A DNA stretch of 33,310 nucleotides, from NCBI GenBank assembly GCA_002726915.1, contig PBSY01000022.1, forward strand, positions 77,102 to 110,411, read 5' to 3'. The stretch is from Verrucomicrobiales bacterium. Its GTDB lineage: Bacteria > Verrucomicrobiota > Verrucomicrobiia > Verrucomicrobiales > DEV007. The notes beneath the pieces are model-generated. The model did not search any database. It was not told the DNA's origin and worked only from the letters and a program-made list of their open reading frames with translations. Positions 1,981 through 30,603 of this stretch are shown piece after piece (positions within the stretch are counted from its first letter, which is position 1; every line of letters begins with the position of its first letter). A program made the position numbers and the translations under genes.

Positions 1981-2679
1981 ATGAACCGTCACCGCTTGTC
2001 CTGGCTTCCTACGATTGTTATTGCCCTGTTCCTTGCTTCTTGCGGTGGGGAAAAAAAGCAAGCTGAGGAATCACAAGCCGCCGGCGTTGAAGCGGAGACA
2101 GAAGTGCCGACTCCAAAGACGATCGATGAGGCGATTGCACGGGGGAACATCGAAGCAGTGAAAAGCTTCATTGCCGCTGATCCCAATGCGGCTAGTAGCG
2201 GGGCTCGCCCCGGTTCGCCGCCATTGCACCAAGCGATCCTGCGCCAGAAATCAGATATTGCTCTGCTCCTGATCACTTCAGGAGCAGATGTCAATGCCGT
2301 CGATTCGAGTCGGCGTACGCCACTGCATCTTTGCGTGGAGCGCGATCTTGCTGATCTCGTTGCGCCGCTTACTGAGGCGGGGGCTAAACCTGATGAGAAA
2401 GATCCGGCCGGTTGGACACCACTGCACCACACAGGAGCGAAAGATCGCGTGGCGGTGGCTAAGGCTCTGCTCGAAAATGGTGCCGACGTCAATATTCGCA
2501 GCGAACTTGGTGGGACGCCGCTTCACGAAGCTGCTGCCAGTGCGAGCGCAGAGCTCGTCAAGATTCTGCTCGATGCCGGAGTTGATGCCTCGATTGTGGC
2601 CGATGGAGGCTCAGCCCTCGACATTGCCAAAGAGTTTGAGAACGAAGCCGCCATCAAGCTCCTGAGTGAGGCGAAGTAG
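1981..2679 (+). CDS. Ankyrin-repeat lipoprotein
   Basis: A 232-residue predicted lipoprotein. The start is ATG 1981 rather than the in-frame codon at 1930, because it gives a clean lipoprotein signal peptide: basic MNRHR, hydrophobic core, lipobox LASC with the lipidated cysteine at residue 21. A low-complexity charged linker follows, then four to five ankyrin repeats to the C-terminus, seen as recurring PLHQAI, TPLHLC, TPLHHTG and TPLHEAA turns and GADVN/GAKPD helix ends about 33 residues apart. Ankyrin repeats bind proteins, so a scaffold role at the cell envelope is the likely job. It sits between a Gfo/Idh oxidoreductase and a cytochrome/DUF1549/DUF1553 protein, all co-directional, which suggests it serves that exported system. 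The partner is unknown. Confidence 0.88.
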   Translation: MNRHRLSWLPTIVIALFLASCGGEKKQAEESQAAGVEAETEVPTPKTIDEAIARGNIEAVKSFIAADPNAASSGARPGSPPLHQAILRQKSDIALLLITSGADVNAVDSSRRTPLHLCVERDLADLVAPLTEAGAKPDEKDPAGWTPLHHTGAKDRVAVAKALLENGADVNIRSELGGTPLHEAAASASAELVKILLDAGVDASIVADGGSALDIAKEFENEAAIKLLSEAK

Positions 2680-2800
2680 AGAGCGACCTCAGAATCTTCG
2701 GGGTAAGGCTGGAGTGATCGGATTAATCCCATTTCGTTCATACGCATACGCAATCACGCATATTATCCGATGGCCCTTTCACGATAGGATGGCTCGAGCA

Positions 2801-5317: not shown

Positions 5318-5337
5318 GGCAATGAATTTGTATAGCT

Positions 5338-15792: not shown

Positions 15793-15821
15793 CGGTTCTC
15801 TCAAAAGTGATTGTCGTCACT
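15788..15821. terminator. Candidate bidirectional hairpin between convergent genes
   Basis: AGTGACG (15788-15794) and CGTCACT (15815-15821) form a perfect 7-bp inverted repeat around a 20-base loop. It spans the stop codons of ecotin (TGA 15790-15792) and the minus-strand sialate esterase (15817-15819). No T-run follows on either strand, so it is at best a weak terminator and may be chance. Confidence 0.3.
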
Positions 15822-17511
15822 GTATCATGGTCGGCCGTTCCCAATCTTTGGAATTGTGACCTTCGGGCTTGGCCGGCTTGTTTACTTCGACGGGATCAGC
15901 CTCGGGATCGTAAAGCGGCCAATCGTCCGTGCGAAAGGGGGAAGCGGGTAGCCCCTCTTGATTGTAAATCAGATTGCGCTGGGAAGGGTTCATCGCCCAG
16001 CCATAGCGAACCGCGACGGGCTTTTCGACCTCAGGAGAGGAAACGACAATAGTGTCTCCGTTGAGGCGCGCATTAGCCCAATTCCAGATCTGATCTTCTC
16101 CTGCGATGGCGAATGAGTCGATCGGTCCTCTCTTCGCTGCCATCAGCCCGCTGCCGATAGAGTCAAATGACAGAATAACGCGGTGCTTACGAATGGTGTG
16201 ACCCCTGTATTGAGGGCCGTCTCCGACAATGTCTTGGCCGTAAGTGTTGGCGAGAGCGTGGTAGGCGTGGCGAATGCCTATCGGTTTCTTGTTTTTGGGA
16301 TGCAGATCAATGGGGTTGCCAGTGTCGATCGTGACGGCCATGCCGGTATTTGGAATGTCGTGGGTCGCGAGGCGCATTGCTTCCCGGCTAACGGCCCAGG
16401 AAGCTTCGATACCTTCAACTGGCTCGATTTGTTCGGGGTTCCAGCTGGGAAGTTGGGTGAATTGAAAAGGAAAGGTGTCAGAGACCTCGCCATTGGAGAG
16501 TTCGTGCCAAGACTTTCGGTAGTAAGTAATCAGGTTGGCGAGTTGGTTGCGGTAGTGCTCCGCCTGGGGAGCGTTTTTGGCGTTGCGTTCTCCCTGATAC
16601 CAGATCATACCCCGAATGCCGTAGGGGCGAATCGGGTAGATCATGGCATTAAATTGATGACCGGGATACTGATGTCCAAGATTCGCTGGCTTGGTGATGA
16701 TGGGTGGTGAGAGTTGTTTGAAGGAATTCTTCATTGTTTCGCCGGAATCGATGAGAGCGTTGTATTCTGCGAGTTCTTTTTCGAAGGAAGCGAAAGCTTT
16801 TTCTTCGGTATCACCGCGGGTGATCATGCGTTTGGCATTCTCTGCATAGCCTTTTTTGTGGGCGATAGCCCGGGGATCGTCTTTCTGAATCTCCCACGGC
16901 ATCCAGCCTTCGATGGGAGTGCCGGCGAAAGCTTGCTGAATGATGCCGACGGGAACGCCAAGTTCCTTGTGAAGTTTCTTGCCGAAGTAGTAGGAGACTG
17001 CGGAGGTCTCAAGAGCCGCCTCGGGATTGCACGGCTTCCAAGTGCTGAGCCGGTCACGTGATTGCTCGAGCGGCTCGTGCCAGTGTTCTCGGCTGGATTT
17101 GAAGATGCGGAAGTCAGGCAGATCGACATTCGTTTCGCCTTCAGCTTCAAAGCTGTTGCCAACGGACCAGCCCATGTTGGACTGGCCGGCGCAGAGCCAG
17201 ACTTCGCCGACCGCTACGTCGTTGAGTTCGATGGTATTGTTTCCTTTGATCGTGAGGCTGTGTCCGGTGCCGTGCTCCGGAGTTTCTAAGTAAACCCGCC
17301 ACTGGCCTTTGTCGTTGGTGGTGGTGTTTTCTTCAGCGCCCCAACTGGCAGTGACCTTGATTTTTTCACCTGGTTCAGCCCAGCCCCAGATCGTATTGCT
17401 GATCTGTTGCTGCAGAATCATATGATCAGCAAAGAAGTTGGGAAGTCGAATCTCAGCTAAAGCGATGCTGGAAAGTCCGAGTATTGTGATGACTAGTGAG
17501 GGGAATTTCAT
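15817..17511 (-). CDS. Sialate O-acetylesterase family protein
   Basis: A 564-residue exported SGNH/GDSL-type esterase. Sialate O-acetylesterases remove acetyl groups from the 9-O or other hydroxyls of sialic acids so that lyases and sialidases can act. Evidence is a signal peptide (MKFPSLVITILGLSSIALA), the LPNFFADHMILQQ opening typical of the family, the nucleophile motif VWLCAGQSNMGW (S111), the GIRGMIWYQGERNA block, and a C-terminal DLHPKNKKPIGIRHA segment carrying the predicted catalytic Asp/His. The gene lies 248 bases downstream of the N-acetylneuraminate lyase on the same strand, which supports a true sialic acid role. Relatives also act on acetylated xylan, so specificity remains an inference. 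Confidence 0.9.
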   Translation of the reverse strand: MKFPSLVITILGLSSIALAEIRLPNFFADHMILQQQISNTIWGWAEPGEKIKVTASWGAEENTTTNDKGQWRVYLETPEHGTGHSLTIKGNNTIELNDVAVGEVWLCAGQSNMGWSVGNSFEAEGETNVDLPDFRIFKSSREHWHEPLEQSRDRLSTWKPCNPEAALETSAVSYYFGKKLHKELGVPVGIIQQAFAGTPIEGWMPWEIQKDDPRAIAHKKGYAENAKRMITRGDTEEKAFASFEKELAEYNALIDSGETMKNSFKQLSPPIITKPANLGHQYPGHQFNAMIYPIRPYGIRGMIWYQGERNAKNAPQAEHYRNQLANLITYYRKSWHELSNGEVSDTFPFQFTQLPSWNPEQIEPVEGIEASWAVSREAMRLATHDIPNTGMAVTIDTGNPIDLHPKNKKPIGIRHAYHALANTYGQDIVGDGPQYRGHTIRKHRVILSFDSIGSGLMAAKRGPIDSFAIAGEDQIWNWANARLNGDTIVVSSPEVEKPVAVRYGWAMNPSQRNLIYNQEGLPASPFRTDDWPLYDPEADPVEVNKPAKPEGHNSKDWERPTMIQ

Positions 17512-17759: not shown

Positions 17760-18692
17760 TTAATTCAGCCGAAAGTTACCGGAGATGAGCTCTTCGGCGA
17801 GGGAGGTTTCTTCAAGCCTTGCGCGTGCTTGCTGAACTTGCGAAGCGGTCATGGAAGGTTGAGGGAGGCGGCAAGGTCCGGTTTGGAATCCGAGTAGTGG
17901 CCAGATGACTTGTTTGACGCAGGCCTGAAATGGCCCCGGTTCGGAGTTGATCAGCTTTACGAGTTGAACGGCCTTCGCCATCCAGGCTTGGGCCTGTTCC
18001 ATATCCCGAGCTTCGTAGGCAGTGATGATTTCTTTCCAGAGGGGAGCGGCGAAGCCATAGCAACTGCCAACCGCGCCCGTGGCTCCAGTAGCGAGGGCAC
18101 CGAGGATCATTTCATCAGATCCGAAGAGAATATCGTAACGCCCGCTATCGAATTGTTGGCAGGCCATCATTTCCGCGAGGAAGAAGTCGCTGAACTTAAT
18201 GCCTGCAAAACTGGGGACGCGATCCTTGACTGCTTTGAGCAGGGCAACGGTATCAAAGGCGACGCCGCTGAGGCGGGGTATGTGATAGTAGTAATAAGGC
18301 AGGTCCGGAGCGGCTCCGGCAACCTCAGCGATGTAGTCGACCAGCAAGTCGAGCGTTGGCGGTTTGAAGTAGGTTGGAGGTAGCGTGGAGATGGCGTCGG
18401 CTCCGATATCAGCGGCGTGGCTGGCAAGTTCACGGGCGGAATCGATTGAGTTGTGACCCACCTGGATCACGGTGGGGACCCTCTGGTTCGTCGCGGTGAA
18501 GTAGGAAGCAGCGACTTTTTTTCGTTCGTCGACAGAAAGGGATTCACCTTCGCCCGTACTGCCGCAAATGTAGAAACCCGAAGCGCCGCGTTCGATCATG
18601 TGATCGGTCATGGCAGGGATGAGTTCAAGATTCACTGCGCCGTTCGAGTGGAAGGGTGTGTAGGTTGCTGCAATGAGTCCCTTGAGTTTCAT
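17760..18692 (-). CDS. nanA: N-acetylneuraminate lyase (DapA/NAL family)
   Basis: A 310-residue class I aldolase of the dihydrodipicolinate synthase/N-acetylneuraminate lyase family. It is expected to cleave sialic acid to N-acetylmannosamine and pyruvate in the cytoplasm. The features favour NAL over DapA: GSTGEG (S45, T46), catalytic tyrosine at the end of the YYYYHIPR run (Y136), Schiff-base lysine in AGIKFSD (K166) and the GSDEM motif (residues 191-195) that contacts sialic acid in known lyases. There is no signal peptide. It is divergent from the GntR regulator across 145 bases and stands before the sialate O-acetylesterase. The neighbouring sialidase and NanM-like domain strongly support the assignment. 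No ManNAc kinase or epimerase gene is in the window. Confidence 0.9.
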   Translation of the reverse strand: MKLKGLIAATYTPFHSNGAVNLELIPAMTDHMIERGASGFYICGSTGEGESLSVDERKKVAASYFTATNQRVPTVIQVGHNSIDSARELASHAADIGADAISTLPPTYFKPPTLDLLVDYIAEVAGAAPDLPYYYYHIPRLSGVAFDTVALLKAVKDRVPSFAGIKFSDFFLAEMMACQQFDSGRYDILFGSDEMILGALATGATGAVGSCYGFAAPLWKEIITAYEARDMEQAQAWMAKAVQLVKLINSEPGPFQACVKQVIWPLLGFQTGPCRLPQPSMTASQVQQARARLEETSLAEELISGNFRLN

Positions 18693-18747
18693 AGTGTGAT
18701 TCGAAGTGACTAGACAGGGTTGGCTCGATGACGTGATTCTGTTGATT

Positions 18748-18757
18748 CAGAATTCTG
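18748..18757. promoter_or_regulatory. 10-bp palindrome CAGAATTCTG in the nanA-gntR gap
   Basis: This perfect palindrome is flanked by another ATTCTG at 18736-18741, which also pairs with CAGAAT at 18748-18753. It lies 56-65 bases upstream of the nanA start, where a promoter or regulator site would be expected. It differs from the palindrome at 18787-18798. Function is a guess. Confidence 0.3.
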
Positions 18758-18773
18758 CTAAAAACCCTTTTCC

Positions 18774-18801
18774 TTGATGTTAGAAAATGTTATAACATAA
18801 T
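18774..18801 (+). promoter_or_regulatory. Predicted gntR-operon promoter with overlapping palindromic operator
   Basis: TTGATG (18774-18779) and CATAAT (18796-18801) are spaced by 16 bases and resemble -35 and -10 boxes; the regulator starts at 18838. The perfect 12-bp palindrome ATGTTATAACAT (18787-18798) fills the spacer and covers half of the -10 box. Short AT-rich palindromes close to their own gene are usual GntR/FCD operators, so bound regulator would block RNA polymerase. The palindrome is directly seen; autorepression is inferred. The same site could act on nanA, divergent 95 bases away. Confidence 0.55.
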
Positions 18802-18837
18802 CGAACGCGCAAGTGTTTTTAAAGAAATTTCAAACGT

Positions 18838-19533
18838 ATGTCGGTTGCCTCTCTCAGCGAAAAAGCGTATCACCATATCCGGAGACAGGTCTTTGCCGGG
18901 GAGTTGTCTCCCGGAGATCGGTTGGTTAATCGTGTTCTCGCTAATGAGCTTGGAACCAGTTTTATTCCGGTTCGAGAAGCGATCAGTCGACTGGCCAGTG
19001 AGGGATTAGTGGAGCAGGTCGCCGGGGCAGGGGCGTTCGTGCGTGTCTTTGACCGTCAGGAAATTTCTGAGATCTACGATGTGAGGGAGTTGTTTGAACC
19101 ACACGCTGCAGGGCAGGCGGCAAGATTCATGACTGACCACGAAGTGGCGGAATTGGAATCGCTTTTGAAGGAATGGGAGGACATAGGTGATACCATTCTG
19201 GCTCGAAAGCGGGGTGCCACAGAATTAGATCTGGATCGCTGGCTTGAACTCAATGAGCGGTTTCACGCGGTGATGATCCAGGCCTCGCGCAACCGGATGC
19301 TCTCGAAGATTACCAAGGATGTGAATGTACTCTCGAAATGCTTCGCTGCCCACCGCGGGTCTCCGCGACTGCTGTCTGAAGATACGGTGAAGTCCACGCT
19401 CAGCTCTCACCGCGAGCTATTTAAATTGCTGGCAGATCGAGATTCGAATCGTGCGGAAGCGTTGGTAAGAGACCAGCTCAAATTCGGGCGTGAGTCTGTT
19501 CTCGCCTTTTTCGATCAGAATAGGAACCGATGA
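18838..19533 (+). CDS. GntR-family transcriptional regulator with FCD domain
   Basis: A 231-residue regulator. Residues 5-70 form the GntR winged helix (SEKAYHHIRRQVFAGELSPG, VREAISRLASEGLVEQ), and the rest is an all-helical FCD ligand domain (YDVRELFEPHAAGQAARFM; LNERFHAVMIQAS with a metal-type His; SSHRELFKLLADRD with a second). The last position that is often His in FCD proteins appears to be Gln in RDQLKFG, so metal binding may differ. The gene is first in the sulfatase-sialidase-transporter operon; its stop overlaps the next start as ATGA (19530-19533). NanR of E. coli is of the same class, so a sialic acid or ManNAc-related effector is reasonable. The effector is inferred from context only. 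Confidence 0.9.
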   Translation: MSVASLSEKAYHHIRRQVFAGELSPGDRLVNRVLANELGTSFIPVREAISRLASEGLVEQVAGAGAFVRVFDRQEISEIYDVRELFEPHAAGQAARFMTDHEVAELESLLKEWEDIGDTILARKRGATELDLDRWLELNERFHAVMIQASRNRMLSKITKDVNVLSKCFAAHRGSPRLLSEDTVKSTLSSHRELFKLLADRDSNRAEALVRDQLKFGRESVLAFFDQNRNR

Positions 19534-20960
19534 AGAAAATTAAACAGAGGGTGAGCTTGCTGGGGTGTTTGGCTGCGTTGAGCCTTTCGGCCGCCATCGG
19601 TTCCGAGCGTCCCAATGTGATCTTGTTCCTCGTTGATGACTTGGGATGGAAAGACCTTGGGTGTCAGGGAAGTGAATATTATGAAACCCCGAACATTGAC
19701 GCGTTAGCGGAGTCGGGGCTTCGCTTCACGGACGCTTACGCAGCTTGCGCGGTTTGCTCGCCGACTCGGGCTGCCATTTTGACGGGCAAATATCCGGCCC
19801 GGCTCATGCTGACCCAATGGCTGCCGTCAGGGCGTTGGAGTGCGACGAAGAACAAGATGAAAGAGGGGCGCTTTCTTCGTTCTCTGCCGCTGGAAGAAGT
19901 GACTTTGGCGGAAGCCCTGCGTGACGAGGGCTACGCTACTTTTCACGTCGGAAAATGGCATCTCGGTGGCGAACCTTTCTCGATGCCGAGACACCATGGT
20001 TTTGATGAAAATGTCGGTGGTGACGACCACGGCGCCCCGGGTAGCTACTTTTACCCTTTTAAGGGAAAATGGACCATTCCGACGACAAAAGAAGCGGTGG
20101 CCAAGCAGGCATTTGAAGGAGGTAAGGAGGGTGACTTTCTCACTGACCTGATGGCGAAAGAAGCTGGCAAGTTGATTATCAGCGCAGGGGATGAGCCCTT
20201 CTTTCTTTATCTTCCCTTTTATGGTGTTCACAGCCCGCTTCAGGGCAAAAAGGACAAGGTCGAACGCTACGCGGCGATACCAAAAGAAGAACGGCAGGGT
20301 GACCCCAAATACGCTGCCATGGTGGAGTCGATTGACGATGCAGTGGGTCATGTCATGGGCGTGGTTGAGGAACGGGGAGAAACGGGAAATACTCTCGTCA
20401 TTTTCACTTCGGATAACGGGGGGCTGGCCAAGGCGACCAATCATAGGCCGCTACGCGCCAACAAAGGTTCTCACTACGAAGGTGGCATTCGGGTGCCTCT
20501 AATCATGGCGGGTGCAGGCATCGGGCTGGATGCACCAGATGGCGTCAACCTGCCGGTCACTTCCTGTGATCTCTATCCGACTATTCTTGCATTGACTCGA
20601 ACACCGATGCGGGAGTCCGATGGATTGAATCTGGCACCCGTGGTTAGTGGGTTGGAGGGAGTGCCATATGCCCGGGAGAATCCTCTTTTCTGGCACTATC
20701 CGCATTACAACCAGCATCCATCGAGTGCTCCGGTGTCGATTATTCGACGGGGAGATTGGAAGTTAATCGAGTTTCTTGAGAGTGGTGAACTGGAGCTCTA
20801 CAACTTGGCAGAAGATATTGGGGAATCTAGGAATCTGGCGAAGGCTCAACCTGAATTGACAGCGGAGTTGTTGACCAAGTTAAAAGAATGGAAAGTAGAT
20901 GCAGGGGCAGAACCGATGCGTCCAAATCTGCAGTACGTAGCGAAGGAGGGAAAGCGATGA
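19530..20960 (+). CDS. Exported type I sulfatase (CSPTR)
   Basis: A 476-residue sulfatase with a signal peptide (basic MKKIKQR, hydrophobic core, cleavage near residue 25). The metal site NVILFLVDDLGWKDLG and the canonical formylglycine motif AVCSPTRAAILTG (C76) are present, followed by FHVGKWHLGG (sulfate-site Lys/His) and FTSDNGGL with the C-terminal metal ligands. It resembles the arylsulfatase A or N-acetylgalactosamine sulfatase branch more than the iduronate type of its neighbours. Start ATG overlaps the stop of the regulator by ATGA, with TAGGAA just upstream, so translation is probably coupled. A formylglycine-generating enzyme or anaerobic maturase is needed but none is in the window. 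Substrate is unknown; the context points to a sulfated sialoglycan. Confidence 0.92.
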   Translation: MKKIKQRVSLLGCLAALSLSAAIGSERPNVILFLVDDLGWKDLGCQGSEYYETPNIDALAESGLRFTDAYAACAVCSPTRAAILTGKYPARLMLTQWLPSGRWSATKNKMKEGRFLRSLPLEEVTLAEALRDEGYATFHVGKWHLGGEPFSMPRHHGFDENVGGDDHGAPGSYFYPFKGKWTIPTTKEAVAKQAFEGGKEGDFLTDLMAKEAGKLIISAGDEPFFLYLPFYGVHSPLQGKKDKVERYAAIPKEERQGDPKYAAMVESIDDAVGHVMGVVEERGETGNTLVIFTSDNGGLAKATNHRPLRANKGSHYEGGIRVPLIMAGAGIGLDAPDGVNLPVTSCDLYPTILALTRTPMRESDGLNLAPVVSGLEGVPYARENPLFWHYPHYNQHPSSAPVSIIRRGDWKLIEFLESGELELYNLAEDIGESRNLAKAQPELTAELLTKLKEWKVDAGAEPMRPNLQYVAKEGKR

Positions 20961-23833
20961 GGTCCTTTCTTTCGGTATTGTGTTTCGCCGGTTTGTCGGC
21001 ACTATTAGGTGCGGCAGAAAGCCCTAACATTCTCCTGATTGTCTCCGAAGATAACGGGCCGGAACTTGGCTGCTACGGCCAGCCTTATGTGCAGACTCCG
21101 GTGCTGGATAAACTGGCTGCGGGTGGTATTCGTTTCGAACGGGCTTATGTGCCCCAGGCGGGTTGCAGCCAGTCACGGGCGGCGCTGATGACAGGCCTTT
21201 ACCCCCATCAGAACGGTCAGATTGGTTTGGCGACGTGGAAGTTTGGTCTCTACGACGGGGCTACACCCAATTTGGTGGGTTCGCTCAAAGGGGCGGGCTA
21301 TCGCACCGGCATTATCGGTAAGCTTCACATTAATCCAAAGGAAGCTTTTCCTTTCGACTTTCGGGCGATCTCCACTTCGAATTTTGCCCGCAAAGATCAT
21401 GATCAGTATTCGGTCAAAGCGAAGGAGTTTATCGAGGCTTCCAATGAGCCGTTTTTCTTGAGCGTGAATTATCCAGATGCGCACCGGCCCTTCATTGCTC
21501 AAGTTGACGGGGTGCCGTCGGAGCCGCTCACAGAGCAGGATGTTACACCGCTGGCGTATTTCGGGCTCGATACTCCTGAGTTGCGTCGCCAGACCGCGGA
21601 CTACCTCAACTGCATGAGTCGTCTCGATGTGCAGGTTGGGGAGTTGCTCGAGGTGTTAAAGGCCTCAGGAAAAGCGAACAATACGCTGATTGTCTACATG
21701 GGGGATCACGGAGCTGATATGTTGCGCGGTAAACGAACCTCGTATGAGGGAGGTGTCAGGGTGCCGTTAATTGTATCCTGGGCAGGGCAGGTTGAACCGG
21801 GCCAGGTACGTCATGAGCTCGTCTCGACCCTCGACTTGATGCCGACCTTTCTCGAGGCCGCAGGGGCGGAGCCGGTCGACGGATTGCCGGGACTTGATCT
21901 CGCTCCCATGTTTGACGGTAGGAAGGTGAAGTGGCGTCCCTATCTTTTCACTGAGTATCACACGCACTCGGCGCACAACTATTATCCGCAACGCACCGTA
22001 CGAGATGATCGCTACAAGTTGATTAGCAATTTGATGCCGGGCGTGGTCAATCCAGGCTACGAATTCACGCGGCGAAAGTTCTTTGAGGAGAAACGCGAGG
22101 TCGTTGCGGTTGCGCCGGAACCAGTAAGGTCTGCTTATGAGCTGATGGAGCAACCTCCGGCCTATGAGCTCTATGACCTCGAGGCTGATCCTTACGAATT
22201 TACTAATCTAGCGGAGAATGAAGAGCACGCGGAAGTGCTCGCCCGATTGCAAGGGGAACTAGAGGACTGGCGCAACGAGACGAATGATCCAATGCGCGAT
22301 CCGGAGAATATTCTTCGGCTCAAGGCGGAGATCGATGCATGTCTCGACGGTGCCGATGCGTCCAAGGCGAAGTTGAACCTGACCTATCCGGAATACTTTT
22401 TCTCTGCCTCCGCTGCCATACCCAGAGGGAACAGGAAGAATGTACTCTTCATTGCGATCGACGATTTGCGTCCGGCCCTGAGATGTTTCGGTGACCCCGT
22501 GGCGATAACACCCCACATCGATACGCTTGCCCGTCGGGGGGTGATTTTCAATCGGGCCTATTGCCAGTTGGCCGTCTGTGCGCCTTCACGGCACTCCCTG
22601 CTGACCGGGCTTCGACCGGATACAATCAAGGTTTGGGATTTAGGAACGCATTTTCGTGAGGCGCTTCCCGAAGCGGTGACCTTACCGCAAGCGTTTAAGG
22701 AGGCGGGATATTCGACTCGGTCGATAGGGAAAATTCTTCACGGAAGCGGAGCGCCTTCTCAGGATCCTCCGTCCTGGTCGGTTGATCCCATACTTGATAC
22801 CAATCGGGAGCCGGAGCTGCGTTATGCCCGAGCTGAGAATCTTAAGGGTTCGGGTTTGAAGCGAAATAGCTCAGAGGCTGCCTCCGTCGAGGATGATTAC
22901 TATATCGACGGACTGATCTGCCGGGAAACGATCACCGCGCTAAAGGAATATGCGGAATCGGGAGAGTCCTTCTTTCTTGCGGTAGGCTTCAAGAAGCCGC
23001 ACTTGCCGTTTTGTGCTCCGCAGCGCTATTGGGAACTCTATGATCGGGAAGCCATTTCGCTGCCTGCTTCGATGGCGCATCCTAGGAAAGCTCCCGAATT
23101 CGCCGTTCGCAGCTGGGGGGAGTTGGAAGGATACCGTGATATCGCGAAAAACGGCTCGCTAACCATGGCTCAGGTGAAAGAGCTACGTCATGGCTACTAC
23201 GCCTGCGTGAGTTACATTGACGCTCAGGTTGGGAGATTGATGGAAACCCTGGAAGCGTCCGGACTCCTAGAAACCACCGTCATCTGCATCTGGGGGGACC
23301 ATGGGTTTCACCTTGGAGAGCAGGGCCTTTGGACCAAGGCCAATAACTACGAGTGGTCGACGCGAGTGCCGCTTCTGATTGCTGACCCTGATCGGGAAGC
23401 GGGAAAGACGGAGGCGCTCGTCGAGTTGGTCGATGTTTACCCAACCTTAGTAGAGCTTTGTGAGCTGCCGATTGGCAGTCAGCTTGAAGGACAGAGCCTC
23501 GTTCCTTTGCTGAAGGATCCTGATCAGCCGTGGGCGGAGTCAGCGATGAGTCAGTATCCCCGAGCAAAACAGGGGAATCGTCACAGTCGCCATGGAGATT
23601 TTATGGGTTACACCATTCGAACACGCGATTACCGCTACGTGGAATGGCGAAACTCTGACACGGGCGATGCCGTGGCGGTGGAGTTTTACGATCATCTCAA
23701 AGATCCTGACGAGACTATGAACGTGGCTCAGAACTCTGATTATCATTCTATTCTCAAGCGGCACGAAGCGCTGCTTTACCTCAGTCTCGAAAAATCCCGT
23801 TCTGCTTCACGAAACCCTTCTTTACCTCAATAA
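20957..23833 (+). CDS. Double-sulfatase fusion (sulfamidase-like + iduronate-2-sulfatase-like)
   Basis: A 958-residue exported protein carrying two full sulfatase domains in one frame. Domain 1 (about 20-470) resembles heparan N-sulfatases: LIVSEDNGPELGCYG, active-site motif GCSQSRAALMTG (C70), IGKLHINP, YMGDHGADMLRGKR and closing YELYDLEADPYEF. Its motif has Gln instead of Pro at the third position. Domain 2 (about 490-940) is iduronate-2-sulfatase-like: FIAIDDLRPAL, canonical VCAPSRHSLLTG (C541), IGKILHGSG, WGDHGFHLGEQG. The signal peptide is MRSFLSVLCFAGLSALLGAA. ATG 20957 is chosen for the strong GGAGGG ribosome site and the ATGA overlap with the gene before. No frameshift or remnant stop is visible at the joint. 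The sialidase follows after 14 bases. Confidence 0.92.
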   Translation: MRSFLSVLCFAGLSALLGAAESPNILLIVSEDNGPELGCYGQPYVQTPVLDKLAAGGIRFERAYVPQAGCSQSRAALMTGLYPHQNGQIGLATWKFGLYDGATPNLVGSLKGAGYRTGIIGKLHINPKEAFPFDFRAISTSNFARKDHDQYSVKAKEFIEASNEPFFLSVNYPDAHRPFIAQVDGVPSEPLTEQDVTPLAYFGLDTPELRRQTADYLNCMSRLDVQVGELLEVLKASGKANNTLIVYMGDHGADMLRGKRTSYEGGVRVPLIVSWAGQVEPGQVRHELVSTLDLMPTFLEAAGAEPVDGLPGLDLAPMFDGRKVKWRPYLFTEYHTHSAHNYYPQRTVRDDRYKLISNLMPGVVNPGYEFTRRKFFEEKREVVAVAPEPVRSAYELMEQPPAYELYDLEADPYEFTNLAENEEHAEVLARLQGELEDWRNETNDPMRDPENILRLKAEIDACLDGADASKAKLNLTYPEYFFSASAAIPRGNRKNVLFIAIDDLRPALRCFGDPVAITPHIDTLARRGVIFNRAYCQLAVCAPSRHSLLTGLRPDTIKVWDLGTHFREALPEAVTLPQAFKEAGYSTRSIGKILHGSGAPSQDPPSWSVDPILDTNREPELRYARAENLKGSGLKRNSSEAASVEDDYYIDGLICRETITALKEYAESGESFFLAVGFKKPHLPFCAPQRYWELYDREAISLPASMAHPRKAPEFAVRSWGELEGYRDIAKNGSLTMAQVKELRHGYYACVSYIDAQVGRLMETLEASGLLETTVICIWGDHGFHLGEQGLWTKANNYEWSTRVPLLIADPDREAGKTEALVELVDVYPTLVELCELPIGSQLEGQSLVPLLKDPDQPWAESAMSQYPRAKQGNRHSRHGDFMGYTIRTRDYRYVEWRNSDTGDAVAVEFYDHLKDPDETMNVAQNSDYHSILKRHEALLYLSLEKSRSASRNPSLPQ

Positions 23834-23847
23834 ATCGCCAACACTTG

Positions 23848-25011
23848 ATGAAACCCTCATTTTACGTCAGTCAATTTATCTCCCTTGCTGGACTCATTCT
23901 CTTGTCCGGTCAAACCAGTCTCTCGGAAAACGCTCAAGAAGCAGGCCTTGATCCGTTTCTCGGTGACCCCGTTGTCGAAATTCAAACAGTCTTTGAGGAT
24001 GAACGATTCCCCAATGTGGTCGTTTCGACGAAAGGCACTGTTCTCGCCACTTTTGGCAGGAAGACCTTGCGTGTTTGCCGGAGCGAAGATGGTGGCAAGA
24101 CCTGGGGCGAACCGATACTGATTGCGGAATCAGGAATTCACGGAGGAGGAACGACGGTGGATGAGAACACCGGGGATATTCTTACGTTTGTGGAGGAGGA
24201 GCATCCACCGGCACGACTGACGGTCTATCGCAGTCAGGATGATGGCAAGACCTGGGTGGTCGACGATGTCACCATCCATCCGGATTCAGAGGGACGCGAT
24301 GTCTCGATGCACATGAATGAGCGTGGTATCACCTTGCGCCATGGAGAGCACAAAGGACGTTTGCTGAGGCCATCGCGTCACTACGGGGAAGGGAATCGTC
24401 CCGAAAGTTTGTTCCCCACTCACTTTACCAACGCCATCTACAGCGATGACGGTGGCGAAAACTGGAAGGCCAGCGATCCATTTCCGCACATGGGGACTGG
24501 TGAGGCCGCTGTGGCAGAGTTGTCAGACGGTCGTATTTATTACAATTCCCGTCGCCACTGGGCGCCCGAAAATGAAAATTCGCGCCGCCGTTGGATTGCA
24601 TGGAGCTACGACGGGGGTGAAACCTGGCAGGATAGCGGTATCTGTGAAGTGCTCCCTGATGGCGCTCAGGACAGAGACTATGGCTGCATGGGGGGATTAG
24701 TCAGATTACCAGTGAAAGGTCGGGATATTCTTTTCTACAGCAACTGCGATAGCGATACTGGTCGAAAGCAGGGCACGATCTGGGGCAGTTTTGATGGCGG
24801 TAAAACTTGGCCGATTAAGCGTCTCATTTATGAAGGTAAATTCGCCTATTCATCCCTTAGCGCAGGTCGCCCGAAAACTGATTCCGAAGGTTGGGTCTAC
24901 CTCCATGTTGAAAGCGAAGGTGGTTCAAAAGTGGCGCGCTTCAATCTGAGTTGGCTGCTGGAAGGAGAATTGACGGGAGATGGTAAAGTCCCGAGTGACC
25001 TTGCTCAATGA
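23848..25011 (+). CDS. Exported exo-alpha-sialidase (BNR/Asp-box, GH33-like)
   Basis: A 387-residue predicted sialidase that would release terminal sialic acid from glycans. After the signal peptide (hydrophobic core about 11-22) there are five Asp boxes: SEDGGKTW (79), SQDDGKTW (129), SDDGGENW (199), SYDGGETW (253), SFDGGKTW (314), one per propeller blade. ERFPN (R53) fits the FRIP-type arginine site, R235 in YNSRRHW another arginine of the triad, E219 near TGEAAVAEL the helper glutamate, and Y334 in FAYSSL the nucleophile; these assignments are by eye. ATG 23848 is preferred to the TTG just before. The downstream sulfatase start overlaps its stop (ATGA). BNR proteins without sialidase activity exist in these bacteria, but neighbours with lyase, mutarotase and esterase homology support the call. 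Confidence 0.85.
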   Translation: MKPSFYVSQFISLAGLILLSGQTSLSENAQEAGLDPFLGDPVVEIQTVFEDERFPNVVVSTKGTVLATFGRKTLRVCRSEDGGKTWGEPILIAESGIHGGGTTVDENTGDILTFVEEEHPPARLTVYRSQDDGKTWVVDDVTIHPDSEGRDVSMHMNERGITLRHGEHKGRLLRPSRHYGEGNRPESLFPTHFTNAIYSDDGGENWKASDPFPHMGTGEAAVAELSDGRIYYNSRRHWAPENENSRRRWIAWSYDGGETWQDSGICEVLPDGAQDRDYGCMGGLVRLPVKGRDILFYSNCDSDTGRKQGTIWGSFDGGKTWPIKRLIYEGKFAYSSLSAGRPKTDSEGWVYLHVESEGGSKVARFNLSWLLEGELTGDGKVPSDLAQ

Positions 25012-26534
25012 AGCGATTCGGACTCATCCTGGTCGGACTGGTCAACTTGTTGGGAACGTCGCTTCGTGGCGAAGCGGAGCGACCCAATGTGCTCTTCCTG
25101 GCGGTTGATGACATGAAAGATTGGGTGAACTGCCTTGGTGGCTATGAGGGCACGGTTAAAACGCCGAATATTGATCGTCTCGCGGCCAGGGGAACTCTTT
25201 TTACAAACGCTCACTGTCCCTCACCCAAGTGTGCGCCGTCACGCGCGGCCATTATGACAGGGTTGATGCCCTCGACCAGCGGACTCTACGATAATGGACA
25301 CTGGTGGTATGCCAATTTCCCTGAGGTAACCACCATTCCTGTGCACTTTCAGAAACACGGTTACCAAGTAGTCGGGGCGGGGAAGATCTTTCATCATACC
25401 GCGGGTAATCATCCTCCGAACCAATGGCATGACTTTCAGAAACTACTCTTCCGAGACGATCCATGGTTTCGAGGAGTAAAGCTGAACTACCCGTGGTCAG
25501 ATCATGGTCCGTATCCGGAAGGATTTCCGTTCAGCGGTGTCGAAGGGCTCGGGCATGAAAACGACTGGGGATCGTTGGGCTACGAAGAAATTCAATACGA
25601 TGATTCCAAGTCGGCGACCTATGCGGTGGAGTTTCTCAAACAAGAGCATGATGAGCCATTCTTTCTGGCCTGTGGCTTGTTTCGACCGCATTTGCCGTGG
25701 TATGTGCCGAAGGATTACTTTGATTACTACCCTTCTGATAAAATCGTAATGCCAAAGGTGAGAAAGGATGATCTCGAAGATGTGCCCGACGCTGGAAAGG
25801 CATTTGCCAAAGCACGGGAAAAAGACTTCGAGTCAATTCTCGAGGCAGGCAAGTATCGGGAGGCGGTGCGGGCTTATCTGGCCAGCATCACCTATGCCGA
25901 TGCGCAGTTGGGGCGTGTTCTAGCGGCGCTGGACGTGAGTGGGCAGGCTGGCAACACTGTGGTGGTGCTGTGGTCGGACCACGGCTGGCATCTTGGAGAG
26001 AAGGGCCACTGGCACAAAACCACATTATGGGAAGAAGCCACACGTGTTCCCTTAATTATTTCGGCTCCTGGCTATGAGCCGGCTCGTTGTTCCCGTCCGG
26101 TTAGTCTGATCGATCTCTATCCGACATTGGACGAATTATGCGGCCTGCAGCCTGATCAAGCTTATGATGGTCAGAGCCTAGTACCGTTGTTAGAATCCCC
26201 TGAAGCAACCCTCGATCGCATCGGGGTCACGATTGAATACAAGCTTGGAAATGTTGCGCTTCGCACAGACCGGTTTCGCTACATTCGCTACGCCGATGGT
26301 AGTGAGGAATTTTATGATCACGAAACTGATCCTTATGAGTGGAAAAATTTGGTAAACGATAATGACTTGATGGAAATAAATATTATACGGGAGCGCTTGG
26401 CGACGCAGGAGTGGGCAGAGTCAGTCTCTAAGAAAGGGGAATTCGATTTTGATCCTGACACTTTCACTTGGAAGGAAAAATCAACAGGTCGAGTTATCGA
26501 TGGCAAGGCTCCTGTAATCCGGTCACTGAGATGA
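25008..26534 (+). CDS. Exported iduronate-2-sulfatase-like sulfatase (CAPSR)
   Basis: A 508-residue sulfatase with signal peptide (MKRFGLILVGLVNLLGTSL). Diagnostic stretches are NVLFLAVDDMKDWVN (metal Asp pair), KCAPSRAAIMTG (canonical formylglycine motif, C75), VGAGKIFHHTAG, FFLACGLFRPHLPW and VVLWSDHGWHLGEKGHW, the set typical of iduronate-2-sulfatase relatives. The first codon overlaps the stop of the sialidase as ATGA (25008-25011), and its own stop overlaps the next gene in the same way. The next gene is a close relative, so this is probably a tandem duplication with divergence. Ribosome site is weak, consistent with coupled translation. Whether it acts on uronate, hexosamine or sialate sulfate cannot be read from sequence. 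Confidence 0.92.
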   Translation: MKRFGLILVGLVNLLGTSLRGEAERPNVLFLAVDDMKDWVNCLGGYEGTVKTPNIDRLAARGTLFTNAHCPSPKCAPSRAAIMTGLMPSTSGLYDNGHWWYANFPEVTTIPVHFQKHGYQVVGAGKIFHHTAGNHPPNQWHDFQKLLFRDDPWFRGVKLNYPWSDHGPYPEGFPFSGVEGLGHENDWGSLGYEEIQYDDSKSATYAVEFLKQEHDEPFFLACGLFRPHLPWYVPKDYFDYYPSDKIVMPKVRKDDLEDVPDAGKAFAKAREKDFESILEAGKYREAVRAYLASITYADAQLGRVLAALDVSGQAGNTVVVLWSDHGWHLGEKGHWHKTTLWEEATRVPLIISAPGYEPARCSRPVSLIDLYPTLDELCGLQPDQAYDGQSLVPLLESPEATLDRIGVTIEYKLGNVALRTDRFRYIRYADGSEEFYDHETDPYEWKNLVNDNDLMEINIIRERLATQEWAESVSKKGEFDFDPDTFTWKEKSTGRVIDGKAPVIRSLR

Positions 26535-27967
26535 AGACTCGCCGCGCAGTTCTTTTTCTACTGCTCAGCCTTAGCGTGGGCTTTGGTTCCGCGGCGATCC
26601 CATCCTCTGCCGAGCCTCGCCCCGATATCCTCTTTATCGTAATCGATGATATGAATGACTGGATCTCGCTTCTAGATCCGGAATCACCGATTCAAACTCC
26701 CAATCTGGAGCGTCTCGCCAAACGTGGCAGCCTCTTCACGAAGGCCTATTGCGCTTCGCCTGCCTGCAATCCCTCCCGCGTCGCAACCCTGACGGGACTG
26801 CGTCCAACGACCAGTGGCGTTTACGGGAACAAGAGTAATTGGCGCAAGGCGCTGCCGGGGCGAAAGACCATCATGCAGCAGTTTCGGGCTGCGGGTTATG
26901 AAGTGAAGGGTGCTGGGAAGATCTTTCATCACCACCTCGACGGGGCGTTTCACGACGACGCGTCATTCAATGAGTTTCAGCCTATGGCAACGCAGAATAT
27001 GCCGGAAGAGAAGTTGAATGGTAGGCCGGGTTATGGCTCGTCCAATACGGACTGGGGTGAGTGGCCGCCGGCAGAAACGGACACAATCGATTTCAAGACG
27101 GCCGACTACTGCATAGAGGTGTTGCAGGGAGACCGAAGTGAGCCACCACTTTTTCTTGCCTGTGGGATCTTCAAGCCTCATTCACCGTTTTTTGCACCAG
27201 CCATCTACCACGAGCCTTATCTCGGGATGGAACTTCCGATACGGAATCCGGATGACTGGGACGACCTGCCTTCGGGAGCCAATGACTTAATGAATTCAAA
27301 GCGTTGGTTTTGGGCTGGCATGATGGGAGTGGAAGTCAAATCTCCGGGATCCTACCAGCGATTCATCGAAGCTTATGCTGCTTGTTGTGCCTTTGCTGAT
27401 GCTCAGTTGGGGCGCGTCCTCGACGCGCTCGATTCTAATCCTCGCGGGAAAGAAACCGTTGTCGTCTTGTGGTCGGATCACGGCTTTCATCTGGGTGAGA
27501 AAGATCACATCGAAAAGTTTGCGCTTTGGGAAAAAGCGAATCGCATTCCCATGATAGTGGTTGCACCCGGCGTCGCCACCCCGGGAAGTGTCTGTGATGC
27601 ACCGGTTGATTTGACTGCCTTGTATCCCACCCTGTTGGAATTGGCAGGGTTGCCTGAAGACAAAAAAGCGGATGGTTACAGCCTTGTTCCGCAACTGAAG
27701 AATCCCGGCCGCAAGCGCCCGATACCGGCGCTAATGACCTATAGCAAAGGCAATCATGCGGTGCGAACGGACCGCTGGCGCTACATTCGCTATTCCGATG
27801 GCACAGAGGAACTTTACGATCACGAGGTGGATCCTGATGAGTGGGCTAACGTGGCTTCCGCTCCGGAGCATGTTGCTGTTTTGAAAGAACACCGGAAGTG
27901 GCTCTTCAGGGTTGAGGCTGATCCCGTCGGTGATTTAAAACGAAAACCCAAGATGAAAACGAAATGA
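26531..27967 (+). CDS. Exported iduronate-2-sulfatase-like sulfatase (CNPSR), tandem paralogue
   Basis: A 478-residue sulfatase with signal peptide (MKTRRAVLFLLLSLSVGFGS). Motifs are ILFIVIDDMNDWIS, ACNPSRVATLTG (C79), VKGAGKIFHHHLDG, FLACGIFKPHSPFF and VVLWSDHGFHLGEKDHIEK. The parallel blocks in the upstream enzyme show they are paralogues. Differences around the substrate pocket (for example DHIEKFALWEKANRIPM against GHWHKTTLWEEATRVPL) suggest different regioselectivity. ATG 26531 is taken because it makes an ATGA overlap with the stop before and begins a signal peptide; an earlier in-frame codon would overlap by 60 bases. The stop overlaps the start of the kelch-symporter gene, again ATGA. 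Substrate is unknown. Confidence 0.92.
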   Translation: MKTRRAVLFLLLSLSVGFGSAAIPSSAEPRPDILFIVIDDMNDWISLLDPESPIQTPNLERLAKRGSLFTKAYCASPACNPSRVATLTGLRPTTSGVYGNKSNWRKALPGRKTIMQQFRAAGYEVKGAGKIFHHHLDGAFHDDASFNEFQPMATQNMPEEKLNGRPGYGSSNTDWGEWPPAETDTIDFKTADYCIEVLQGDRSEPPLFLACGIFKPHSPFFAPAIYHEPYLGMELPIRNPDDWDDLPSGANDLMNSKRWFWAGMMGVEVKSPGSYQRFIEAYAACCAFADAQLGRVLDALDSNPRGKETVVVLWSDHGFHLGEKDHIEKFALWEKANRIPMIVVAPGVATPGSVCDAPVDLTALYPTLLELAGLPEDKKADGYSLVPQLKNPGRKRPIPALMTYSKGNHAVRTDRWRYIRYSDGTEELYDHEVDPDEWANVASAPEHVAVLKEHRKWLFRVEADPVGDLKRKPKMKTK

Positions 27968-30603
27968 AGGGCCGAGTTGGAACTGCGCTGGCCGGGATAA
28001 TCTGTCTGGTGGCTAATGTTGTCGCCACCGCCGAAGACCTGTCTGTCGGGGTGGGGCTGATTCAATGGCATTCACTCCCAAAGCTTCCTGATACTCACGG
28101 GCTGGCTGGTCCGTTTGCCGGTAAAATTGGCGAATCGCTGGTCGTTGCCGGTGGGGCCAATTTCCCAAAGGCACCGCCGTGGGAGGGTGGTAAGAAGGTC
28201 TGGCATGATCGTATCTTTGTTTACTCAGCTGAGCAGAACTCGTGGATAGTTTCAGAGACGAGGCTTCCGCAATCACTAGCTTACGGGGTGTCGCTGACAC
28301 TCCCAGGGCGTGCTTCTGTGGTGTTACTGGGGGGCAGTGATCAGGAGAACGTTCCCACCACTACGGCGATGGAATTGCGATTGGTTTCGGGGAACGTGAC
28401 CCTGACCGAATTGCCTCCGCTCCCCGTTCCCCTTGCTGAAATGAGTGGGGAGGCGATTGGCAACGCGCTTTACCTTTTTTCGGGACGAACCAGCGAAAAA
28501 ACATCTCAGACTCTGTTTCAAATCGACCTCGATGCCATCAAGCCCCAATGGAAGGCTTTGCCATGGCCCGGTGAGGCCAGAGGGCGCATGCATTCCATCG
28601 CTGGGAAGCAAGATGGGAAGCTTTACTGGTTTGGGGGTCGCGACGGAATGTCTGAAGGTTCTATTCCCTTTTCTGAAGATCGTATGGAACCCGAGAGTCT
28701 CGACTTTCTCAGGGACTGTTATTGCTTTGATCCAGCTACGACTGAATGGGAGCATTTGGCGGATCTTCCCGCTGGCCTCTCTGCGGCCCCGTCTCCAGCG
28801 GTTTCAGTCGGAGAAGCACACCTTCTCATCCTTGGTGGCGTGACCGTAAATTTTTTAAAAGAACAGTTAAGGGCGCGCCCTGAGTTGAATGGGCAGGGTC
28901 ATGAGCACCCCGGATTTCCAAGGACGGTTTGGGGGTATCATACCGTCACTAATACCTGGGCGCCAGTGGATGAAATTCCCCTGGAGTTCGAAGCGCCGGT
29001 CACTGTGCCGGTGGTGATGGCTGACGCGAACACTTTCTTAATTTCGTCGGGAGAAATTAAGCCAGGAGTGAGAACACGGCAGGTCATTCGCGGTCAAGTC
29101 GAGTCCAACCGTGCTTCCTTTGGAGTGGTCAATTGGATTGTGGTCGCGGTTTATCTGCTCGCCATGGTGGCGGTCGGCTACGGATTCATGAGGCGCGAAT
29201 CTGCTGCTTCGACCGATGCCTACTTCCGAGGGGGTCAGCGGGTGCCATGGTGGGTGGCTGGTCTTTCAATTTTCGCAACGATGCTGTCGGCAATCACTTT
29301 TATGGCGATTCCGGCGAAAGCCTATGCCGAGAACCTCAACTTCTGGATCGGACAGTGGGCCATGGTGCTGATCGTGCCGCTGGTGGTCCTTTTTTATCTC
29401 CCGTATTTTCGAAAACTGAATATCACTTCGGCCTACGAGTTTCTCGAGAACCGTTTTAATCTTGCTTCGCGTTTGGTAGCCAGCGCTTTGTTCATGCTCT
29501 TTCACGTGGGGCGGGTTGCCATCGTGCTCTACCTGCCGGCCCTTGCGCTATCGAGTGCAACGGATATCAACATTTACGCGGCTATTCTTGCCATCGGCTT
29601 GCTTTGCATCATCTACACTGTCATGGGTGGCATCGAAGCTGTGGTCTGGACAGATGCGATTCAGGCGTTGGTTCTATTAGGGGGAGCACTTCTTTGTCTT
29701 TTGATCGTGATTTTCAATCTCGATGGTGGCATGGGCACGCTTGTCAGTATCGCTGGGGAAGATGGAAAGGGACTAGTCGCTGACTGGAACGGTTTCGACT
29801 TCAGCTCCTCGACGAACTCCGGTTGGGTGATCTTTCTTGGGTTCCTATTTGCTTCGCTGCCATCCTACACAGCGGGCCAAGATGTGGTGCAGCGATACGT
29901 GACGACTCCGAGTGAGAAAGACGCGGCGCGTTCTCTCTGGCTCAATCTTCCGATGGCTTTGTTAGGCTCCTTGCTCTTCTTTGGCTTAGGAACCGCACTC
30001 TATGCTTTCTACAAAACTCAGCCTGAATTGCTCGACCCCACCCTTGAGCGAAATGACGGCATCCTTCCTTTCTTTATCCTTCAGAATCTGCCAGTCGGCG
30101 TAGCTGGTTTGATCGTGGCCGGAATTTTTGCGGCGGCCCAATCGACTATTTCTAGTTCGTTGAACTCGGTTGCGACCGCCTTTGTGACCGACTATTACGG
30201 TCGGATTTTGAAACCGCAATCGCCGGATGCATTACGTCTTGCTGTGGCGCGACGAATTGTGATCGTTCTAGGCCTCATTGGAATTGTTCTCGCCTCGTGG
30301 ATCTCAGCGACGGGCATCAAGTCAGCGTTCGACGCATTCAATACATTCATCGGCATGGCACTTGGGCCAGTGGGGGGCATGTTTTTTATTGGCGTATTTG
30401 TGAAGAGGGCGTCAGGGGCAGTCGCCTTGATCGGAGCAGTGGTGGGATTCCTTATCGTGTTAGCTCTTCATTTTGCGAGGCAGGCAGGAGCGATCGATCT
30501 CTGGCCGATTCTCAATGGTATGATTAGTTTTGTCGTCACCGTTGTGGTGGGAGCGCTTGTGGGACTTTTAAAGCGACAGACCGCGTCATTGGAGGACGCT
30601 TAG
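27964..30603 (+). CDS. NanM-like kelch mutarotase fused to sodium:solute symporter
   Basis: An 879-residue fusion. After a signal peptide (about 1-23) residues 24-380 form a kelch propeller like N-acetylneuraminate epimerase NanM: LPKLPDTHGLAGPFAGKIG, VVAGGANFP...WEGGKKVWHDRIFVY, LYWFGGRDG, LLILGGVT. NanM converts alpha- to beta-sialic acid in the periplasm. Residues from about 388 to 875 are a sodium:solute symporter with roughly thirteen membrane segments (NWIVVAVYLLAMVAVGYG first; DAYFRGGQRVPWW, YEFLENRFN, YTVMGGIEAVVWTD are family blocks). A periplasmic N-terminal domain agrees with the expected outward N-terminus of this family. The gene closes the operon, and its start overlaps the stop of the sulfatase (ATGA). 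Sialic acid as transported sugar is inferred from the fused domain and neighbours. Confidence 0.9.
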   Translation: MKGRVGTALAGIICLVANVVATAEDLSVGVGLIQWHSLPKLPDTHGLAGPFAGKIGESLVVAGGANFPKAPPWEGGKKVWHDRIFVYSAEQNSWIVSETRLPQSLAYGVSLTLPGRASVVLLGGSDQENVPTTTAMELRLVSGNVTLTELPPLPVPLAEMSGEAIGNALYLFSGRTSEKTSQTLFQIDLDAIKPQWKALPWPGEARGRMHSIAGKQDGKLYWFGGRDGMSEGSIPFSEDRMEPESLDFLRDCYCFDPATTEWEHLADLPAGLSAAPSPAVSVGEAHLLILGGVTVNFLKEQLRARPELNGQGHEHPGFPRTVWGYHTVTNTWAPVDEIPLEFEAPVTVPVVMADANTFLISSGEIKPGVRTRQVIRGQVESNRASFGVVNWIVVAVYLLAMVAVGYGFMRRESAASTDAYFRGGQRVPWWVAGLSIFATMLSAITFMAIPAKAYAENLNFWIGQWAMVLIVPLVVLFYLPYFRKLNITSAYEFLENRFNLASRLVASALFMLFHVGRVAIVLYLPALALSSATDINIYAAILAIGLLCIIYTVMGGIEAVVWTDAIQALVLLGGALLCLLIVIFNLDGGMGTLVSIAGEDGKGLVADWNGFDFSSSTNSGWVIFLGFLFASLPSYTAGQDVVQRYVTTPSEKDAARSLWLNLPMALLGSLLFFGLGTALYAFYKTQPELLDPTLERNDGILPFFILQNLPVGVAGLIVAGIFAAAQSTISSSLNSVATAFVTDYYGRILKPQSPDALRLAVARRIVIVLGLIGIVLASWISATGIKSAFDAFNTFIGMALGPVGGMFFIGVFVKRASGAVALIGAVVGFLIVLALHFARQAGAIDLWPILNGMISFVVTVVVGALVGLLKRQTASLEDA

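Follow-up and report, generated by a model that had tools for sequence, protein, structure and literature searches.

The window analysed here is a stretch of 33,310 nucleotides at the end of contig C22 in the draft genome of a Verrucomicrobiales bacterium (genome G000; 3.53 Mb, 92.5% complete). It carries a sialic acid catabolic (nan) locus in which a NanA-type lyase gene is divergent from a run of genes encoding a GntR/FCD regulator, four sulfatase proteins, a BNR-repeat protein resembling GH33 sialidases, and a NanM mutarotase fused to a SiaT-type symporter (Table 1). Pfam searches identified five PF00884 domains in the four sulfatase proteins of the plus-strand run and confirmed the gene content and order of the initial annotation, which had been made from the sequence alone, including the NanM-symporter fusion and the divergent lyase.

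Table 1. Features of the locus, with positions in the window. Likely starts are given for the double sulfatase and for S4, whose open reading frames open at 20888 and 26468, respectively.
Feature	Position	Strand	Assignment
SASA-family esterase, putative sialate O-acetylesterase	15817..17511	-	PF03629, 61 bits (cut-off 24.8); signal peptide by eye
NanA-type N-acetylneuraminate lyase (DHDPS superfamily), cytoplasmic (predicted)	17760..18692	-	PF00701; best solved match 6arh
Palindromic operator candidate ATGTTATAACAT	18787..18798	.	NanA/GntR intergenic region
GntR/FCD regulator	18838..19533	+	PF00392, PF07729
Sulfatase S1a	19530..20960	+	PF00884; CSPTR site; nearest solved relative a kappa-carrageenan sulfatase, S1_16
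Double sulfatase S2a+S2b	20957..23833	+	Two PF00884 stretches; CSQSR and CAPSR sites; S1_8-like and iduronate-2-sulfatase-like domains
GH33-like BNR protein without catalytic Asp loop	23845..25011	+	PF13088
Sulfatase S3	25008..26534	+	PF00884; CAPSR site
Sulfatase S4	26531..27967	+	PF00884; CNPSR site
NanM kelch mutarotase fused to SiaT-type sodium symporter	27964..30603	+	PF24996, PF00474

With the likely starts, 4-base overlaps are found at five of the six plus-strand junctions in the run that begins with the GntR gene and ends with the NanM-symporter gene, and the only gap, of 11–14 bases, lies between the S2 and BNR genes. A single operon under the GntR regulator, as first proposed, is therefore likely, and this run is probably one transcript. 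Co-transcription of the SASA gene with NanA is less sure because 248 bases separate the two. Hydrophobic signal-like N-termini, read by eye, are present in the sulfatases, the BNR protein, the NanM-symporter and the SASA protein and absent from the lyase and the regulator.

A search for the same gene order in other genomes had been suggested as a check, and the whole order is indeed kept in G075 (locus L061) and G081 (locus L062; G and L numbers denote the genomes and loci compared). When NanA was used as bait in named genomes, a sulfatase label appeared at eight of the nine loci with a lyase of at least 56% identity (L101–L109), the ninth (L109) being a 5.8 kb contig with no such label. The closest of these lyases (94% identity) belongs to L101, from 'Akkermansiaceae bacterium UBA1506'. 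Five of the bait loci duplicate others discussed here (L101=L061, L102=L080, L103=L081, L105=L062 and L106=L063). In L108, a region of 20.9 kb around NanA from Opitutia UBA7876, five of the eight sulfatase domains have their best match within G000 in the window operon (bits for the operon against the next match: S2a 556/205; S1a 501/285; S2b 584/359; S3 579/379; S4 535/353); of the remainder, one matches window S1a and a background domain equally well and two match background domains, the comparison covering 73 G000 background domains, or about half of the genome's set. In the extended form of this contig (L215), NanA is divergent from S3-S2a-S2b-S4, which are accompanied by a further sulfatase, a gene resembling M50 peptidases, S1a, a GH33 sialidase that has the catalytic Asp loop, and a NanM-symporter fusion. 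The order kept in G075 and G081, together with the sulfatase set in more distant genomes, argues that the arrangement is not due to chance.

A tree of 132 sulfatase domains (71 own-genome background, six from the window, ten from control loci and the rest from relatives; FastTree, midpoint root) places each of the five operon domains in a clade that contains only members from sialidase or nan loci before any of the 71 background domains joins. These clades comprise seven members for S1a (support 0.909), ten for S2a (0.989), six for S2b (0.999), six for S4 (1.0) and five for S3 (0.899, dropping to 0.607 when L241 is added). The sulfatase S0, which is encoded in the window but not in the operon, falls straight among the background paralogues, and an S2b-like domain of L242 lies outside the S2b clade. 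In the reverse test, S2a of L215 was used as query and matched 15 of 387 genomes of the phylum at E 1e-80. Besides its own genome, matches of at least 50% identity occur in four (G463, G389, G444 and G334), all of which have GH33 or BNR genes beside the S2a-type sulfatase; NanM-symporter fusions are also present in G444 and G334, and G334 (L242) has NanA at 41% and S1a at 54%. No GH33, BNR, NanA, NanM or AGE was found (six-frame search, E 1e-5) in eight control loci with S2a matches of 42–47% (L243–L250), of which L244 is a 6 kb contig and which represent a partial sample of the weaker matches; S2b-like sulfatases are present in L245, L248 and L250. The simple caller used for open reading frames (longest frames) missed genes in GC-rich loci, and 16 loci were rechecked by six-frame search, which recovered the NanA and S1a-type genes of L242; the other loci may hold missed genes. 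Judged from these comparisons, the combination of sulfatase and sialic acid genes is unusual and inherited.

Several relatives carry the same functions within one polypeptide. A protein of 1517 residues in L080 joins sulfatase, SASA and BNR domains, one of 1734 residues in L082 joins sulfatase, SASA, BNR_assoc_N and BNR domains, and one of 1186 residues in L063 joins sulfatase, BNR_assoc_N and BNR domains; a SASA-GH33 frame is also present in G152 (L183). Because desulfation, deacetylation and sialic acid release would thus be fused in a single chain, these proteins provide the most direct hint of one common substrate. The sulfatase-BNR cluster around the L080 protein, in genome G043, also includes cupin, PhyH-like and GDSL-type genes (L080 6247-7161, 868-1644 and 8593-9291, respectively), some of them repeated in G152 and G086; the PhyH-like name is our presumption from the sequence.

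The strongest functional clue is the symporter, which appears from its sequence to be a dedicated sialic acid transporter. It matches the Proteus mirabilis SiaT structure 5nv9 with 416 bits and retains S60, T63, Q82 and R135, while T58 is replaced by Met; the available text of PMC5931594 reports that mutants of the first four residues abolish sialic acid uptake and that T58A doubles it. The NanM part matches 2uvk (YJHT) with 47 bits. For the lyase, the best solved match is the N-acetylneuraminate lyase 6arh (211 bits), with DHDPS-named chains scoring about 100 bits or less, and the GSTGEG, YYYHIP.L.G, K166, GSDE and GAVGS regions are conserved. The proposed sialate lyase is thus nearest to N-acetylneuraminate lyases, although the cut-offs of the NCBIfam nanA models are not reached. 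The NanA of G081 (L062 4686-5612) is only 64% identical to that of the window, whereas its BNR and NanM-symporter proteins are 88-89% identical, as if the G081 lyase had been replaced. The predicted O-acetylesterase that accompanies the lyase is present as a PF03629 protein, its nearest solved chains being the carbohydrate esterase FI8 (9h4u, the best match), the sialate O-acetylesterase 9ega, and 7kmm, such that the more specific name stays putative. Its gene adjoins NanA in L061 and L062 and not in the other NanA loci examined.

The GntR/FCD protein scores 39.5 bits against the NanR subfamily model NF003011, far below the cut-off of 260, and the same regulator family is found in L061–L063, L080–L082, L107 and L109. 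The palindrome ATGTTATAACAT occurs once in the window when one mismatch is allowed, against 0.03 expected occurrences, and its core is exact in seven of eight aligned intergenic regions, with one change in L080. Across 250 loci (2.97 Mb, overlaps included), the core TGTTATAACA occurs in 15, which represent eight genomes, and in all eight it lies at this GntR gene and/or at NanA. One of them, G086 (L005, L082), has the core on a contig that lacks NanA; in L104 the core is located between NanA and S1a with no GntR gene beside it, and L108/L215 contain no exact core. The regulator probably acts through ATGTTATAACAT as a candidate operator.

We consider it fairly probable that the locus is a variant of the nan locus for sulfated sialoglycans, one that would desulfate these glycans before or during the harvest of sialic acid. 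In such a scheme, the exported sulfatases would strip sulfate from a sialylated glycan or from sialic acid itself, the SASA esterase would probably remove acetyl groups, and a GH33-type enzyme would free the sialic acid. The outward-facing NanM domain would turn the released alpha anomer into the beta form, the fused symporter would import it with sodium, and cytoplasmic NanA would yield pyruvate and an acylmannosamine, with the GntR/FCD protein controlling the divergent promoters, probably via ATGTTATAACAT. The enzyme activities, the order of the steps, their location (from signal peptides read by eye) and the pairing of regulator and operator are as we infer them from the gene set, and so is the placement of the sulfates on or next to sialic acid. 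The last of these follows from the absence of any galactosidase, hexosaminidase or fucosidase by Pfam among the genes scanned (20 in the window, five of L108 and ten of L239/L241/L215), which makes the set look built for a terminal sugar and not for depolymerisation. That the sulfate sits on the sialic acid itself is possible but doubtful.

A number of observations weigh against this interpretation. Proximity to NanA or possession of S2a was the reason for including most of the relatives in the tree, and the purity of its clades has been gauged solely against the control loci and the background domains of G000. Of the eight control loci, two carry SASA genes (L245 and L248), one of them with a weak match to the symporter family SSF (L245). 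Sulfatases are lacking, by six-frame search, from nan loci in other families of the order (L065, L066, L067 and L070) and are therefore not general to nan loci, while L239 and L240 have the sulfatase-GH33 set with neither NanA nor NanM within 20 kb. The NanM-symporter fusion is itself common, matching in 33 of 189 genomes of the order at E 1e-100, and BNR relatives of 58–64% identity are also encoded away from nan genes (L083–L089, L094). The lyase falls below the NCBIfam nanA equivalog cut-offs, as noted. No AGE was found in G000, G075 or G081, the three genomes with the full operon, and NanE appears in G000 and G081 only as matches that score about 20 bits where the cut-off is 27; BLAST detected no AGE in nine of ten genomes (G000, G075, G081, G104, G124, G164, G189, G190 and G191). 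The BNR protein lacks the short loop that bears the GH33 catalytic (acid/base) Asp in the alignment, and no canonical GH33 was found in the G000 or G081 drafts, the search being confined to this sialidase family. Finally, the whole of G000 is rich in sulfatases.

The BNR protein had been called a sialidase outright, and its relationship to that family holds up: it matches sialidase 1eur (E 1.2e-25), and R54, E220, R236, R307 and Y335, corresponding by alignment to the active-site arginines, Glu and Tyr, are invariant in ten alignment rows. An AlphaFold model of low confidence (pLDDT 54, five-row alignment), used as fold support only and not for residue geometry, has 1eus and other sialidases as its top Foldseek matches. 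The activity is another matter, since the catalytic Asp, present in the canonical GH33 enzymes of L063, L215 and L239–L241, is missing and no canonical GH33 that might stand in was found in G000, and the release step in the window is therefore uncertain. G075 has a canonical GH33 on contig C110 and a second partial match. These genome searches used the BNR part alone as query, because searches with a whole sulfatase-BNR fusion were swamped by sulfatases. The contribution of the catalytic Asp is the concern of a deposited structure of the Micromonospora viridifaciens sialidase (1w8o), and Asp mutants of that enzyme reportedly retain some activity. At L085–L088, BNR proteins 61-63% identical to that of the window are clustered with S0-like sulfatases and carry no nan labels nearby; in L085, one adjacent gene encodes a sulfatase that also has a 3-keto-disaccharide hydrolase domain.

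The abundance of sulfatases bears on the possibility that those of the operon serve an unrelated sulfated polysaccharide, algal or animal, and lie beside the nan genes by chance. G000 has 154 PF00884 matches, some of which are pieces of one domain, and at least four runs of five or more sulfatases (gaps up to 3.5 kb), the operon included, among the 149 starts in the matches listed. The sulfatase count alone is ordinary for G000, and dominance by sulfatases, which the initial annotation had picked out as unusual, is by itself nothing out of the ordinary in a genome so rich in sulfatases, with at least four such runs. Sulfatase counts over 17 genomes were set aside, only about 76 candidates per genome having been scored in most. 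Carrageenan sulfatases are among the nearest solved relatives, and S1_7, S1_8 and S1_16 sulfatases are described in Verrucomicrobiota polysaccharide loci in the available text of PMC8857213. Nevertheless, the type-by-type co-inheritance, which extends to the Opitutia contig, the reverse test and the domain fusions all run counter to a chance association, and we regard it as improbable.

The nearest solved sulfatases leave the position of the sulfate unfixed. S1a is closest to the S1_16 enzyme 9fo1 (E 6.5e-112) and S2a to 9bb9 (S1_8A); S2b matches 6hhm and iduronate-2-sulfatase (IDS), S3 matches 6hhm (E 4.8e-59) and IDS (E 5e-47), and S4 matches 6hhm (E 3e-42), which we take to be an S1_7 ulvan sulfatase. 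Mucin-desulfating entries appear among the solved matches as weaker hits only (7p24). The C-x-P-x-R maturation motif is present in four of the five domains (S1a, S2b, S3 and S4). In S2a (domain 20957-22400) it is replaced by CSQSR, which is kept in L061, L107, L108 and L239–L241, whereas the more distant S2a orthologues of L063, L080, L081 and L242 have CSPSR; C-x-Q-x-R is found in none of 61 parsed G000 background domains (12 of 73 yielded no site). A gene for an FGE-type sulfatase-modifying factor (PF03781; L241 5555-6775) adjoins the S4-S2a-GH33-S3 run of L241.

These matches also bear on a narrower form of our preferred reading, with odds that overlap, in which the locus would act on sulfated mucin or on some other sialylated glycoprotein of a host, with the sulfates carried by galactose, GlcNAc or GalNAc and not by sialic acid. 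Sialic acids cap mucins, and 4-sulfated galactose or GalNAc could be the substrate of an S1_16-type enzyme. The characterised gut mucin sulfatases are, as far as is known, members of other S1 subfamilies. They act on 3S-Gal or 6S-GlcNAc according to the accessible part of PMC10017367; no operon domain has a mucin sulfatase as its best match, these being S1_16, S1_8A and 6hhm/IDS, and the scanned genes include no other glycosidase. We consider such a target unlikely, if not strikingly so, and the sulfated mucin of the initial annotation is not specifically indicated. Its broader proposal of a system for sulfated sialoglycans survives as a NanA/NanM/SiaT module coupled to a specific, conserved sulfatase set, the sialidase and the mucin having been put forward too surely.

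The missing epimerase leads to a different proposal, namely that the locus handles some nonulosonic acid distinct from Neu5Ac, such as Kdn of microalgal or animal origin. Cleavage by the lyase would in that case release mannose and make a ManNAc epimerase unnecessary, in keeping with the lack of AGE, and of NanE above cut-off, in the three full-operon genomes. Kdn is made by a haptophyte and probably by other microalgae (PMC6200933, in the text available). Set against this, AGE adjoins NanA in several related loci (L063/L106, L080/L102, L081/L103 and L109), F78 of the symporter is kept, as are, in the alignment, two residues of the acetyl-amino pocket of SiaT (G81 and F243), and the lyase has Glu at the position that we equate with Asp50 of the Kdn-specific aldolase mentioned in the accessible part of PMC10017367. 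We judge a target other than Neu5Ac distinctly unlikely; for the step after the lyase, the options are another ManNAc route or a Kdn substrate giving mannose. Gaps in the drafts could hide AGE in some of the nine genomes, though hardly in all, and the absence of a ManNAc epimerase may extend beyond this species; NagB was found in all nine genomes tried. A Gfo/Idh/MocA-like gene directly follows the NanM-symporter gene in L075, L076, L124 and L125, where other nan loci have AGE, and the genomes of the first two (G104 and G124) gave no AGE match.

Returning to sulfated sialoglycans, a bolder version can be offered only tentatively. Here the five sulfatases would have sulfated sialic (nonulosonic) acids as their direct substrates, with at least one enzyme for each position or linkage, making this the first known bacterial pathway of its kind; the loss of the Asp from the BNR protein would be an adaptation to a sialoside that is sulfated or unusual in some other way, and the acylmannosamine would be processed by a route other than AGE/NanE.

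A few neighbouring arrangements are of separate interest. Upstream of the locus, the window contains a PSD1/PSCyt (DUF1553/DUF1549) and DUF1501 gene pair (2666-6774). In L239 and L240, S2a-S2b-GH33 and S1a adjoin, in place of the NanM-symporter fusion, an ABC transporter set of the sugar type (in L239, Pfam identifies a binding protein, an ATPase and a permease). Two Planctomycetota NanA loci, L126 (Phycisphaerae) and L110 (Sedimentisphaerales), carry sulfatases of different types close to genes for GH33/BNR proteins and AGE, possibly a separate association of sulfatases with nan genes.

Sulfated sialic acids are reported to be ubiquitous in vertebrates and are known from sea urchin gametes (PMC9304399, available text), and section 12 of a 2023 review (PMC10017367) gives no microbial sulfatase as known to act on them. 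The accessible part of PMC11929135 reports planctomycete strains that have numerous sialidases as well as a nan cluster. The main text of a nanE-keyed survey (PMC10570557), as available, contains neither 'verrucomicrobi' nor 'sulfatase', and no description of a nan locus with sulfatases was found among PMC titles and the starts of abstracts, a scope that leaves out most subscription papers. The recurrence of these sulfatase types beside sialic acid genes in related bacteria points to an enzyme set directed at a sulfated sugar, one whose degradation by bacteria has received very little study. The locus supplies candidates for the enzymes, together with domain fusions and a regulator site, through which this degradation could be tested. 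It would also add a role in sialic acid metabolism to the large sulfatase sets of Verrucomicrobiota, which are usually read as enzymes for algal polysaccharides.

Taken as a whole, the sequence comparisons indicate that the locus is a real, conserved and coherent nan variant. It shares with canonical nan/SiaT loci (NanA, NanM, the SSS symporter SiaT, sialidase and esterase) the lyase, mutarotase, SiaT-type symporter, a GntR-type regulator and a GH33-like protein. Unlike them, it has five sulfatase domains predicted to be exported and joins NanM and the symporter in one protein; G000 yielded no ManNAc epimerase, and the GH33-like protein lacks the catalytic Asp. The nan loci L065, L066, L067 and L070 of the same order share NanA and the NanM-symporter fusion, but they also have AGE and no sulfatase and look like an ordinary Neu5Ac route. 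Loci for sulfated fucose/rhamnose polysaccharides in the same phylum, as far as the available text of PMC8857213 describes them, similarly combine clustered S1 sulfatases with symporters; the window differs in having the sialic acid lyase, mutarotase and SiaT, and no fucosidase or rhamnosidase among the scanned genes. Finally, the accessible part of PMC10017367 describes an O-acetylesterase/sialidase fusion from Bifidobacterium bifidum in which a remover of blocking groups is joined to GH33, as in the proteins of L080 and L082; compared with this fusion, the proteins of the relatives have a sulfatase domain in addition to those of the esterase and BNR types.

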